A stretch of 14,980 nt of DNA from Candidatus Atribacteria bacterium. GTDB taxonomy: Bacteria; Atribacterota; JALVIU01. Positions 3,183 through 10,631 of this stretch are shown piece after piece. The DNA is taken from NCBI GenBank assembly GCA_027028665.1, contig JALVIU010000111.1:1-14980 (forward strand). The letters run 5' to 3'. The notes below the pieces were generated by a model. The model was not told where the DNA came from, searched no databases, and worked only from the letters and a program-made list of their open reading frames with translations. Position numbers and translations under genes: made by a program. How positions within the stretch are numbered: position 1 is the first letter of the stretch; every line of letters begins with the position of its first letter.

Positions 3183-3794
3183 GTGATTAAAAATATCTCC
3201 CTATCTGATCCATACATGTATTATAGACTTGATCCAGGTGAGGTGGGGCCCACCTTACCTGTTCGGGCAAAAGAAAGTATTATGCATGTAGCATCTCATG
3301 AGGCGGCAAATCTTGCCCGTATGAAGTATGATGCCTGGAGTAGAGGTGGAATTGTGGTGTATGAACATCTCCACCTTGATTATACTAAACGGGGCAATTT
3401 TATTGCTGCATCATCTGGGTATTCAGAGGTGAGAGTAATTTATCCAAACAGAAAAGGAAATACATCTTCTATATATCCGGAACATTGTGATCAAGATGCA
3501 GCTTCTCCAGGGGATAAAGATACTCTTTTAGATCCTTTTAAAAATAAGAAAGCCCTTCTTAAATATATAGAAGACATAAAGGTAAATAAGGAGATAGAGG
3601 AAGCAGAGGAGAAGGTGGATACACTTCTTGCAAAGGTAAATAACATAGCTACACCTAACAAGGTAAAAGAGGCAATAAAGGCTTATAAGATGATGATTGC
3701 TCTCGCAAAATCCTTTGCAAAGAGTAATCATGGGAAAAAACTTGCAGAGAGTATGGTAGCATCTATAAAAAATAAGGTTAATCTGTTGACATAG
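3183..3794 (+). CDS. Uncharacterised protein with HExxN motif and coiled-coil tail
   Basis: I do not recognise this 203-residue protein with confidence. It has no signal peptide or membrane helix, so it looks cytosolic. Residues 27-90 form a compact domain with a His-Glu pair in a helix (SHEAANLARMKYDAW, H39, E40, N43), then G-rich and strand-like segments ending near SSGYSEVRVIY. This layout loosely recalls the HExxH-containing SprA-related/CJM1_0395-type putative metalloprotease domain, but the third ligand position is Asn, not His, so protease activity is doubtful. Residues about 118-160 are Lys/Glu-rich and likely coiled coil, followed by another basic helix to the end. Its GTG start lies 19 bases after the ftsZ stop with a GGTGAT ribosome site, so it is probably co-transcribed with ftsA-ftsZ. 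A link to division is only positional inference. Confidence 0.8.
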   Translation: MIKNISLSDPYMYYRLDPGEVGPTLPVRAKESIMHVASHEAANLARMKYDAWSRGGIVVYEHLHLDYTKRGNFIAASSGYSEVRVIYPNRKGNTSSIYPEHCDQDAASPGDKDTLLDPFKNKKALLKYIEDIKVNKEIEEAEEKVDTLLAKVNNIATPNKVKEAIKAYKMMIALAKSFAKSNHGKKLAESMVASIKNKVNLLT

Positions 3795-6539: not shown

Positions 6540-7844
6540 GTGGACTATAAAGAATCCCTTTCTTATCTTGATGGCCTTTCCCGATTTGGGTCAAGGCCAG
6601 GGCTTACAACTATTCAATATCTGTTGTACCTTATTGGGAATCCGGAGAGAAGGCTAAAAATAATACATATAGCAGGGACAAATGGTAAAGGCTCTACCTC
6701 TTCTATGTTATCCCGGGGACTTAAAGAGGTGGGGTATCGGGTAGGTACATATACATCACCCCATCTCTTTAGTATAAGGGAGAGAATAAAGATAGATGGA
6801 GAAGATGTAGAAGAGAAAGAGTTCGCCCACCTTATTACATTTTTGCATCCTTATATAGAAAGGGTAGCAAATAAAGAAGGCTGTTTCCATCCTACATTCT
6901 TTGAAACCCTTACGGCAGCTGCTTTTTATTATTTTGCTCAAAAAGATGTCGATATAGTAGTACTTGAAACAGGTATGGGAGGGAGATTTGACGCAACAAA
7001 TGTGGCATATCCCCTTATCTCTGTAATCACACATGTTGCCAGGGATCATACCAATTTTTTGGGATATAAACTGGAAAAGATTGCAGAGGAGAAGTGTGGG
7101 ATCATAAAAGGGGGAATACCTGTTGTAAGTGCCAGACAGGAGGGGAGTGTAAAAAAGGTTATAGAAGAAAATGCCTTATATAAAGGCTCTCCTGCCTATT
7201 TCGCAGAAGGAAAGGCAGATATTCTAAAGGTAAATATAGATGGTACCACTTTTATTTATAAAGATCTCTATGGAGGGAAACATAATGTAGAGATATCACT
7301 TATTGGTCCTCATCAGATGGATAATGCCGCACTTTCCCTGTATACTGCAGAAATCCTAAAGTACCATTGGGATTATGATATAACTCTTGATATATTTATA
7401 AGAGGAATAAAAAAGGTTTGGTGGCCTGGGAGATTTCAAGTTTTAAGAAGAAATCCTTATATAATTCTGGATGGTGCGCATAATGTAGATGGGGTGAAGA
7501 GGCTTGTTGAAACCTTAAAACTGGTATTTCCAGATAAGAAAGTTGTCCTGCTTATGGGTGTTCTAAGAGATAAAGAATATAGAAAGATGGCATCACTACT
7601 TTCCCCTTTTGTAAAAAAGGTTATACTTACTACTCCAGAGAGTGATAGGGCCCTTTCTCCATATATATTAAAGGAGGAATTTGAAAAATTTACAGATATA
7701 GATGTAGATGTTATACCTTCACCTATAGATGCGATAAAATATACAGAGAAACTCCTTGGTAGAGATGAAATACTATTGATCACGGGTTCCTTGTATCTTA
7801 TAGGATTAATCGGTAGATATATTATGAGATATGAAAAAACATGA
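6540..7844 (+). CDS. folC: Folylpolyglutamate synthase / dihydrofolate synthase
   Basis: ATP-dependent Mur-ligase-family enzyme that adds glutamate to dihydropteroate and to folates, keeping them in the cell. The 434 residues carry the P-loop HIAGTNGKGST at 43-53, TYTSPHLFSIRERI at 70-83, the LETGMGGRFDATNV segment at 142-155, ARDHTNFLG at 167-175, the carbamoyl-lysine region EEKCGIIK at 183-190, and the C-terminal-domain motif DGAHNVDG at 311-318. Translation starts at GTG 6540, immediately after the valS TAA, with AAGGA at 6525-6529 as the likely ribosome site. The valS-folC pair is a known arrangement in several phyla. Whether it has both synthase activities cannot be read from sequence. 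Confidence 0.95.
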   Translation: MDYKESLSYLDGLSRFGSRPGLTTIQYLLYLIGNPERRLKIIHIAGTNGKGSTSSMLSRGLKEVGYRVGTYTSPHLFSIRERIKIDGEDVEEKEFAHLITFLHPYIERVANKEGCFHPTFFETLTAAAFYYFAQKDVDIVVLETGMGGRFDATNVAYPLISVITHVARDHTNFLGYKLEKIAEEKCGIIKGGIPVVSARQEGSVKKVIEENALYKGSPAYFAEGKADILKVNIDGTTFIYKDLYGGKHNVEISLIGPHQMDNAALSLYTAEILKYHWDYDITLDIFIRGIKKVWWPGRFQVLRRNPYIILDGAHNVDGVKRLVETLKLVFPDKKVVLLMGVLRDKEYRKMASLLSPFVKKVILTTPESDRALSPYILKEEFEKFTDIDVDVIPSPIDAIKYTEKLLGRDEILLITGSLYLIGLIGRYIMRYEKT

Positions 7845-8379
7845 ACAATATATACTCTTTGGTATTATAGTTTTAATTATAGGAATAGGTATCTTCTCTT
7901 TTTTGTACATAGAGAAGAGGTTTTCCTTTACTAAGATAGTAATAGAAGAGGCAACACCTACAACTACTTCCTATATTATCATTCATGTAGCAGGAGAGGT
8001 GAAAAACCCAGGGGTGTATAAGCTTCCTGGGGGTAGTAGGGTATATGAGGCCATAGAGGCAGCAGGGGGTGCATTGAAAGATGCCATACTGGATAAGTTA
8101 AATCTTGCTCGAGTATTGAAAGATGGCGAAAAGGTCAATGTACCAAAAAATTATAATACTGGCCAGGTCCTTTCAGGTAGAAAGAAAAGGATTGATATAA
8201 ATGAAATGGATAAAGAGGAGCTTAAGAGATTACCTGGTGTAGGGGAAAAACTTGCAGAGAGGATAATAAAATATAGAGAAACATATGGACCATTTAAAAG
8301 TATAGATGATCTAAAACAGGTATCCGGGATCGGTGATAAGAAATTAGAAGATATAAAGAACTATCTAAATTCACAATAG
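7831..8379 (+). CDS. comEA: ComEA-type DNA-uptake receptor (SLBB + helix-hairpin-helix)
   Basis: Membrane-anchored DNA-binding protein of natural transformation that holds incoming duplex DNA and delivers it to ComEC. The 182 residues show one N-terminal membrane anchor (about 7-27), a short Thr-rich linker, an SLBB domain (about 48-106, with HVAGEVKNPGVYKLPGGSRVYEAIEAAGG-like core residues), and a C-terminal double helix-hairpin-helix (119-182) with the two hairpins LPGVGEKLAERI and VSGIGDKKLEDI. This long form, anchor plus SLBB plus HhH, matches the Firmicutes-type receptor more than the short periplasmic proteobacterial ComEA. It overlaps folC by 14 bases. Its last codons overlap the open frame of comEC, giving translational coupling. 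Without comEC next door it could be called a generic HhH protein. Confidence 0.9.
   Translation: MKKHEQYILFGIIVLIIGIGIFSFLYIEKRFSFTKIVIEEATPTTTSYIIIHVAGEVKNPGVYKLPGGSRVYEAIEAAGGALKDAILDKLNLARVLKDGEKVNVPKNYNTGQVLSGRKKRIDINEMDKEELKRLPGVGEKLAERIIKYRETYGPFKSIDDLKQVSGIGDKKLEDIKNYLNSQ
8332..8337 (+). promoter_or_regulatory. Possible ribosome binding site for comEC inside comEA
   Basis: GGTGAT lies five bases before the in-frame ATT at 8343, the same motif and spacing as before the GTG gene at 3183. It also encodes Gly-Asp of the ComEA hairpin, so it may be coincidental. Confidence 0.35.
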
Positions 8380-10631
8380 AGCTCTATAAAAGACCTCTTT
8401 TATTCTTTGCCCTCTTTTATCTTTTAGGAATTTTATATGCAATTATCTATTGGTCACATTTATTTTTCTTATTTACAATTCTTCTTTTCATCCTTTTTGT
8501 TACATTATTTATCCTAATAAAGTCGAAAAAATCGGTACTATTAGCCCTCCTTCTACTTGGAATAGGATTTCTAAACTTCTCCTTTCATGGTTATTTTTTA
8601 CCCTCTAAGATTACATATTTCAATTATAAAGTACTTACCCTTGAAGGTAAGGTATTGGCCCTTAAAAAGAGTGAATCCTTTTCTTCCTTTATACTAAAAG
8701 GTTTTCCCTCTATCCATGTATACACAAAGGGTCCTATTAACATAAATGAGGGGGATAGTGTAAAGGTCTTATATATTAAAGTCCATCCCATATCTGAGAA
8801 GAACTATCCCCAATATCTGAGAAACTATTATAAGAGGATGGGGGTCTATCTTTATGGATGGGTGGATGGAGGGAATATAAAAGTCCTTGGGTATAAACAC
8901 CCATTTTCTCTATATATCCACCGTTTGAGAAGAAGGATAAAAGGTGTATTTACCAGTGTCCCTATAATAGGGGCATTTGTATTGGGTAAGGAGATGGATA
9001 TTTCACAGGACATACGGGACTTGTTTGCCCGATTAGGCATTGTTCATCTCTTTGCCGTATCCGGTCTTCACTTTGGCCTTATATTTTTGTTTCTTGTCTT
9101 TTTAGGAGGCCTTTTCTGGGATAGAAGGAGGTCATCTATTATATCTTTTGTTATTCTTACATTTTATCTTTTTATTGTAGGAACACACCCTTCTGTAGTA
9201 AGAGCATATATAATGATAAGTACATATGTATTTGCTATATTTTTCTATAGGAGATATGATTTTTTACAGGCCCTCTCCCTGGCCTTGATTATTATACTCC
9301 TTATTAACCCATTGGAGATTGAAGACCCGGGATTTTTACTTTCATTTTCCTCTGTTTTGGCAATATATCTATTTGATAAAGTAGTGGATAGGGAGTTGAT
9401 TATATACCCCTTTTATTTATTGTTTCTTACTCTTTGGCTCTGGATCTTTAATTTTCCTATAGTTGTGAATTTCTTTCATAGGGTACCCCTTTTCTCTATA
9501 CTATTTTCTCCTCTCCTTACACTCCTTGCATCCCTTTTTGTGATATATGCATTTTTCATCTCTCTGGTATCCCTTGTACACCCTATTACTGCCATTTCCC
9601 TTTTATCCCTTATAAAACCCTTCATAGGATACTATAAACAGATCATGTACTTTATAGACCGTATTCCCCTTTCTTCTTATATATTCCCCCATATTCCCTT
9701 TTTCCTTATATTCATATGGTATGCCTTGATTTTTCTTATTCTTTATCTTTTGAAAAAGGGTTCCTGGCAAAAGATTCTTTTTGTCTCCTTATCTCTTGTC
9801 TTTCTTATACTTTTGTATAATCTATTTCCCCATCCATTAAATATGGATTTTATATATGTAGGTGAAGGTGATAGCATATTTATTCACCCTCCTGGAGGGG
9901 CGAACATCCTTGTGGATGTAGGCTCACAAAAGGGTGGAGATTATGTGGCATCTTTTCTTAAAAGAAGAGGTGTGAATAGGATCGATTTTCTGTTTTTGAC
10001 ACACCCTGATATTGACCACTGGGGTGGGGTGGAAGACCTATTGGATACATTTGATATAGGAGAGGTATTTATAAATGGCCAAAAAACAGATGATGAGGGA
10101 TACAATCTACTTCTTCTTAATCTTAGAGAAATAGGTGTTCCGGTAAGGTCTGTCTCTGTTGGGGATAAAATATACATAGGAGATAGCCTGATATTTTCCA
10201 TATTAAACCCCCCTTCTTATAGGTATTTTGAAAAGGATAACAATAATTCCATTGTTATTGGCCTAAGATACGGCAACTCTTCTGCTGTCTTGACAGGGGA
10301 TCTTGAGGCAAAAGGGGAGAGGTATCTAATTGACCATCACCTTCTTTCTCACTATGATATACTTAAGGTGGCACACCATGGGAGTAAAAGCTCTACTACC
10401 CCCTCTTTTTTAGATGCTATAACACCATATTGTGCAGTTATATCTGTTGGGAAAAATAGATATAGACATCCATCAAAAAAGGTTGTAAAATTAATACCAC
10501 AAAAGGGCGTTGATCTTTACAGAACAGACATAGATGGGGATATAGAGTGTCTTACATATGGGCATAGATGGAAGATATTTACAAAAAGAACAAAAAAGAG
10601 GAGGATTTATGGATTATCAGAGGGCTATTAG
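8343..10631 (+). CDS. comEC: ComEC/Rec2 DNA-uptake channel, non-canonical start
   Basis: Multi-pass inner-membrane channel that passes single-stranded DNA into the cytosol. The first ATG/GTG/TTG in frame is TTG 8655, but the same frame is open without a stop from 8340. There it encodes ELYKRPLLFFALFYLLGI and further hydrophobic segments, the typical ComEC N-terminal helices (DUF4131 region). I therefore extend the gene to ATT 8343 (762 residues, with GGTGAT upstream). ATA 8376, overlapping the comEA stop, would give 751. The competence domain contains LFAVSGLHFGLIF and many membrane helices. A metallo-beta-lactamase-like domain follows, with GDS, LLVDVG-like, LTHPDIDHWGG and VAHHGSKSST motifs. 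Its metal-binding residues are largely kept, consistent with a possible nuclease role proposed for the family. It overlaps holA by 23 bases. Confidence 0.92.
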   Translation: MRRYKELSKFTIELYKRPLLFFALFYLLGILYAIIYWSHLFFLFTILLFILFVTLFILIKSKKSVLLALLLLGIGFLNFSFHGYFLPSKITYFNYKVLTLEGKVLALKKSESFSSFILKGFPSIHVYTKGPININEGDSVKVLYIKVHPISEKNYPQYLRNYYKRMGVYLYGWVDGGNIKVLGYKHPFSLYIHRLRRRIKGVFTSVPIIGAFVLGKEMDISQDIRDLFARLGIVHLFAVSGLHFGLIFLFLVFLGGLFWDRRRSSIISFVILTFYLFIVGTHPSVVRAYIMISTYVFAIFFYRRYDFLQALSLALIIILLINPLEIEDPGFLLSFSSVLAIYLFDKVVDRELIIYPFYLLFLTLWLWIFNFPIVVNFFHRVPLFSILFSPLLTLLASLFVIYAFFISLVSLVHPITAISLLSLIKPFIGYYKQIMYFIDRIPLSSYIFPHIPFFLIFIWYALIFLILYLLKKGSWQKILFVSLSLVFLILLYNLFPHPLNMDFIYVGEGDSIFIHPPGGANILVDVGSQKGGDYVASFLKRRGVNRIDFLFLTHPDIDHWGGVEDLLDTFDIGEVFINGQKTDDEGYNLLLLNLREIGVPVRSVSVGDKIYIGDSLIFSILNPPSYRYFEKDNNNSIVIGLRYGNSSAVLTGDLEAKGERYLIDHHLLSHYDILKVAHHGSKSSTTPSFLDAITPYCAVISVGKNRYRHPSKKVVKLIPQKGVDLYRTDIDGDIECLTYGHRWKIFTKRTKKRRIYGLSEGY
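10598..10605 (+). promoter_or_regulatory. Ribosome binding site deciding the holA start
   Basis: GAGGAGGA lies just before ATG 10609. An upstream in-frame ATG at 10558 would add 17 residues of unrelated, highly charged sequence and has no such site, so 10609 is preferred. Confidence 0.7.

Follow-up and report, generated by a model that had tools for sequence, protein, structure and literature searches.

The window analyzed here, a stretch of 14,980 nucleotides, is a single contig of a metagenome-assembled genome (1.79 Mb, 413 contigs, approximately 90% complete) from an uncultured Atribacterota bacterium. On its forward strand, folC, comEA and comEC look like a chain of overlapping genes. comEA runs from an ATG to a TAG (7831-8379, with the stop codon at 8377-8379) and encodes an SLBB domain and a helix-hairpin-helix (HhH) region (Pfam SLBB, 2e-15; HHH_3, 8.5e-23). 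Its start sits in the 3' end of folC, with a 14-base overlap (7831-7844) and little Shine-Dalgarno pairing (-1.7 kcal/mol), and at its 3' end it overlaps with the beginning of comEC. The comEC frame is open from 8340 to 10628, directly after a TAA at 8337-8339, the last in-frame stop 5' of the gene. Counted from the ATT discussed below and including the stop codon, the CDS of the ComEC/Rec2 DNA-uptake channel covers 8343-10631 and encodes membrane helices, a Competence domain (PF03772, 6.5e-46) and then a metallo-beta-lactamase-like domain (Lactamase_B, PF00753, 1.9e-15). The Pfam domain DUF4131, covering the N-terminal helices and OB-like region, was reported for ComEC of another Atribacterota family, f2, and not for the window ComEC; both align from approximately residue 18. 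The best matches of the window ComEC are 30-35% identical, and the nearest genomes compared have the phylum Atribacterota in common with the window genome and nothing closer.

The comEC frame lacks a conventional start codon where one would be needed. From 8340 onward, it contains no ATG, GTG or TTG until a TTG at 8655-8657, which is codon 106 of the open frame, and CTG is also absent from the stretch that leads from the in-frame stop to the conserved comEC N-terminus. This gap of 105 codons between the stop and the first canonical start was the longest in a sample of 154 ORFs from the same genome, each 130 aa or longer. In an alignment of the window ComEC with 12 Atribacterota sequences, which are aligned from approximately residue 18, P19, L20, Y27, G30, G76 and N79 (numbered from 8340) are invariant in all 13. 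Because the invariant residues start at P19, translation of comEC must begin no later than about codon 18, which confines the start to the stretch from 8340 to approximately 8393. The TTG at 8655, which would delete the invariant residues from P19 to N79, was ruled out as the comEC start. The first-pass annotation had described a frame open from 8340 with TTG 8655 as its first conventional start, and a conserved N-terminus lying 5' of that codon; the sequence and translation bear out the former, and the alignment with relatives, in which the protein is conserved by about codon 18, confirms the latter.

Between 8340 and approximately 8393, codons that differ from ATG in the third base occur only twice, as ATT at 8343-8345 and as ATA at 8376-8378. 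Both had been put forward as candidates in the first-pass annotation, the ATT with GGTGAT five bases upstream and the ATA overlapping the comEA TAG as ATAG, and both are correctly placed; what stands after our comparison is a non-canonical start inside comEA at ATT 8343, while ATA 8376 fell to second choice. GGTGAT (8332-8337), a Shine-Dalgarno-like site, lies within the GIGD of the second ComEA HhH motif. The predicted duplex with the 16S tail reaches -9.0 kcal/mol for ATT 8343 versus -0.6 kcal/mol for ATA 8376, which leaves ATT as the sole near-cognate codon here with a Shine-Dalgarno match; a canonical tail was assumed because the 16S end was not recovered from this genome, and the tail is canonical in another Atribacterota family. 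In a sample of this genome, 6 of 176 start regions contain GGTGAT versus none of 176 coding interiors, and a GTG at 3183 in the window likewise uses it. The motif at comEC is partly dictated by the ComEA coding for GIGD. The arrangement GGTGAT-N5-ATT is no rarity, with 8 occurrences in 274 kb, and was therefore weighed at the comEC site only. The positive control, the infC gene of this genome, starts at ATT, and its start region is almost identical, with GGTGATAAAGA-ATT in infC and GGTGATAAGAA-ATT in comEC (the infC start region of this genome is also given as GGGGTGATAAAGA-ATT).

Based on our findings, a comEC start other than ATG, GTG or TTG inside comEA is well supported, and ATT 8343 is clearly preferred over ATA 8376. 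We propose that the comEC gene is intact and that its translation begins at a non-canonical AUU at 8343, within the last 37 bases of comEA, a reading that we hold with a probability of about two in three; that the AUU is actually used, that output is low and that it is sensitive to IF3 is what we infer. GGUGAU, which also encodes Gly-Asp of the ComEA HhH motif, would place the ribosome for comEC, and the initiator tRNA would pair with the first and second bases of AUU 8343, as in infC. The organism would tolerate the AUU, and a normal start would be blocked by the overlap with the ComEA HhH coding. In the phase of the window, each comEC codon takes its first base from the last position of a comEA codon and its other two from the opening bases of the codon after it. 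An NTG start for comEC inside comEA thus needs Cys, Trp or a stop in ComEA, since TG must open a comEA codon. At 8343, NTG would change a ComEA leucine codon from TTA to TGA; because the overlap falls on the conserved ComEA HhH motif, a normal start at 8343 appears to be excluded. Family f5 has the same phase as the window; its comEC has TTG, and in all genomes read a Cys codon, TGT, is present in the ComEA tail. At the f5 loci (L003-L009, L011 and L013), this conserved ComEA C-terminal Cys supplies the comEC TTG, as the phase demands.

A canonical comEC start is likewise missing in f2 and in a clade of Bacilli, but both the phase and the site there differ from those of the window. In f2, comEC could be read in 8 genomes, and in 6 of them (L010, L014, L015, L016, L019 and L020, three of which have a TTG inside the first helix) no ATG, GTG or TTG follows the in-frame stop ahead of the first membrane helix; L036, L038, L039 and L045 are GenBank copies of four of these six and add no independent data. 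The loci L017 and G031 have an ATG, but 22-27 codons further up within comEA. The f2 comEA ends in TAT-TAA, TAT-TAG or CAT-TAG, so that an ATT overlaps the stop in 6 of 8 genomes, and two genomes have ACT instead. A CTG is also present in 6 of 8, mostly seven bases after AAGGAG, and either the CTG or the ATT may serve as the f2 comEC start.

Outside Atribacterota, only one of approximately 60 ComEC loci, L105 of Bacilli bacterium RGIG2062, was without a canonical start. Among its relatives, a clade of small-genome gut Bacilli, all 14 genomes carry ATT at a fixed site 32 nt ahead of the comEA end, and sister genomes have TTG (10), ATG (2), ACG (1) or ATC (1) at the same site. The ACG and ATC belong to L254 and L255, and in L255 a TTG follows seven codons further on. 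No canonical codon lies upstream of the ATT in 8 of the 14; the remaining 6 have ATG or GTG within nine codons upstream and, together with L255, were excluded from the count of loci lacking a start. GGAGA of the ComEA GIGE motif lies approximately nine bases upstream of the ATT, and the infC start codon of this clade appears to be ATC or ATA. TAT, AAT, TTT and ATT codons elsewhere in the comEA tail are equally invariant, so the invariance of the ATT cannot be used as proof of start-codon selection. Canonical starts are also present in all of 28 additional ComEC loci drawn from Bacillota and one other phylum, giving approximately 88 loci with normal starts in total. Since these 28 and the approximately 60 other loci are canonical, L105 excepted, the missing comEC start is lineage-specific and not general. 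Judged from these loci, the pattern appears to recur independently in f2 and in the Bacilli clade.

Within these Atribacterota, comEC is not unique, since hisIE, birA, infC, tatD, thpR and ftsY also appear to have AUU or AUA starts. In the window genome, hisIE (L124, 1848-2492, minus strand) has an ATT after AAGGAGTTGAGGTAAG, and its family profile matches upstream of any canonical start; its probable start is GAAAGGAGTTGAGGTAAG-ATT, and the first canonical codon is 18 codons in, within the HisIE match. birA (L124, 1201-1875, minus strand) probably starts at an ATA after AGGAGG (AGGAGGAAGGAGAG), and this ATA overlaps the hisIE TAG as ATAG. Its profile match precedes any canonical start, since the first ATG, GTG or TTG comes 39 codons into the frame, where the profile already matches. 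In G001, an f2 genome, the profile match also lies upstream of any canonical start for infC, and likewise for tatD (L177, 1704-2474, minus strand; first canonical start after 73 codons), thpR (L116, 4577-5161, minus strand; 42 codons) and cvpA (L185, 5566-6093, plus strand; 30 codons), the last three with an apparent ATN start. ftsY of G001 (L114, 4753-5688, plus strand; 31 codons) looks alike, judged by its N-terminal sequence, with an apparent ATT that overlaps the TAG of the preceding gene (ATTAG). By a rough estimate, such genes make up approximately 1-2% of the ORFs sampled in two lineages, the window genome and f2; the samples of f3 and f6 contained no clear gene with a non-canonical start. 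A blind count of Shine-Dalgarno-anchored ATA and ATT codons in five genomes gave 7 observed versus approximately 3.6 expected, which is not significant, so the wider claim for AUU and AUA starts rests on the individual conserved genes.

These genes bear on what the unusual comEC codon means. In a lineage that tolerates AUU and AUA and in which the comEA overlap bars a normal start, such a codon could have arisen by neutral drift and carry no regulatory meaning, and we give this explanation even odds. It draws on the phase argument, which comes from the sequence, and on hisIE, birA, tatD, thpR, ftsY and cvpA of these Atribacterota, which are also without canonical starts; the Bacilli clade, which keeps ATT in 14 of 14 genomes, speaks against it, but weakly, as neighboring comEA codons are equally invariant. 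Drift concerns the meaning of the start and not its position, and it is compatible with initiation at AUU 8343. A neutral origin from the overlap and tolerance of AUU fits the data equally as well as regulation does.

With respect to position, the main rival is ATA 8376, at which comEC would start by termination-reinitiation, with ribosomes that finish comEA at the TAG stepping back onto the AUA. The geometry of this overlap resembles ATGA junctions, the birA ATA of the same genome overlaps a TAG in the same manner with a strong AGGAGG, an ATT overlaps the comEA stop in most f2 genomes, and the short N-terminus would be compatible with the ComEC alignment. However, ATA 8376 itself is without Shine-Dalgarno pairing, and the corresponding f2 codon is ACT in two genomes, so we consider this start unlikely. 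Less probable still, by a good distance, is a sequencing or assembly error that hides a normal start, the dull alternative of the first-pass annotation. The window is one contig of a 413-contig metagenome assembly, and the analysis had one assembly of the species, but no single substitution yields NTG at 8343 without creating TGA in comEA, and the error reading is weakened because the start loss recurs in many independent assemblies. We reject as barely credible the earlier suggestion that a -1 ribosomal slip near 8355-8358, where A-AAG would let a single lysine tRNA re-pair and the comEC frame is open from 8340, fuses ComEA to ComEC: there is no X-XXY-YYZ slippery heptamer between 8338 and 8379, the predicted folding of 8300-8440 is no stronger than that of shuffled sequences (z 0.44), the shift would have to be -1 in the window and f5 but +1 in the Bacilli clade and f2, and the fusion would run the extracellular HhH domain into the first helix of ComEC, whose N-terminus is expected to be cytoplasmic.

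If comEC starts at AUU 8343, the codon may also have consequences for regulation. An IF3 gene is present in the window genome (205 bits). By comparison with infC and ccpN, it is plausible that DNA uptake is throttled via the AUU, and control of comEC by IF3 or by growth state may be envisaged by analogy. Should comEC belong with the infC-type genes in several lineages, synthesis of the uptake channel may be set at the start codon. Taking all lineages together, at least three of them may have independently evolved an AUU or near-cognate comEC start with its Shine-Dalgarno site hidden in the comEA 3' end, keeping channel synthesis low and tied to IF3 and ribosome supply, with AUU and AUA in some Atribacterota starting approximately 1-2% of genes, far above model bacteria; we offer this joint reading tentatively, at odds clearly against it. 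On the practical side, gene callers that admit only ATG, GTG and TTG would begin comEC as much as 104 codons too far downstream, with loss of the first membrane helices, and would likewise misplace hisIE, birA, tatD and others in these Atribacterota.

Few bacterial genes with non-canonical starts are known to us, namely infC, pcnB, ccpN and cvfC1, and comEC is, on sequence grounds, a probable addition to them. Elsewhere, infC is known to start at AUU or AUA, and such infC starts feed back on IF3 and are found in many bacteria. comEC resembles it in having a near-cognate codon that differs in the third base only, together with a Shine-Dalgarno site; in contrast to the IF3 feedback of infC, comEC encodes a membrane channel and starts inside the preceding gene. 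pcnB of E. coli has an AUU start and is a gene outside the translation machinery, as comEC is, but the gene and its context are different. Our literature search, which most subscription papers lay outside, found no link between comEC and AUU or other non-canonical starts. In Staphylococcus aureus, ribosome profiling maps non-canonical starts at infC (AUA), cvfC1 (AUU) and ccpN (AUA), those of ccpN and cvfC1 being conserved and giving a reporter output of about a tenth of that from AUG in poor medium; this study makes no mention of comEC (PMC13009471). The ccpN and cvfC1 starts are non-canonical as in comEC, but they have extended Shine-Dalgarno motifs and were mapped by ribosome profiling. Finally, comEA and comEC resemble coupled pairs of the ATGA type in that adjacent genes overlap and the comEC start precedes the comEA stop; unlike in those pairs, the comEC start is not ATG, and the favored codon lies 37 nt before the comEA end, not at its stop.
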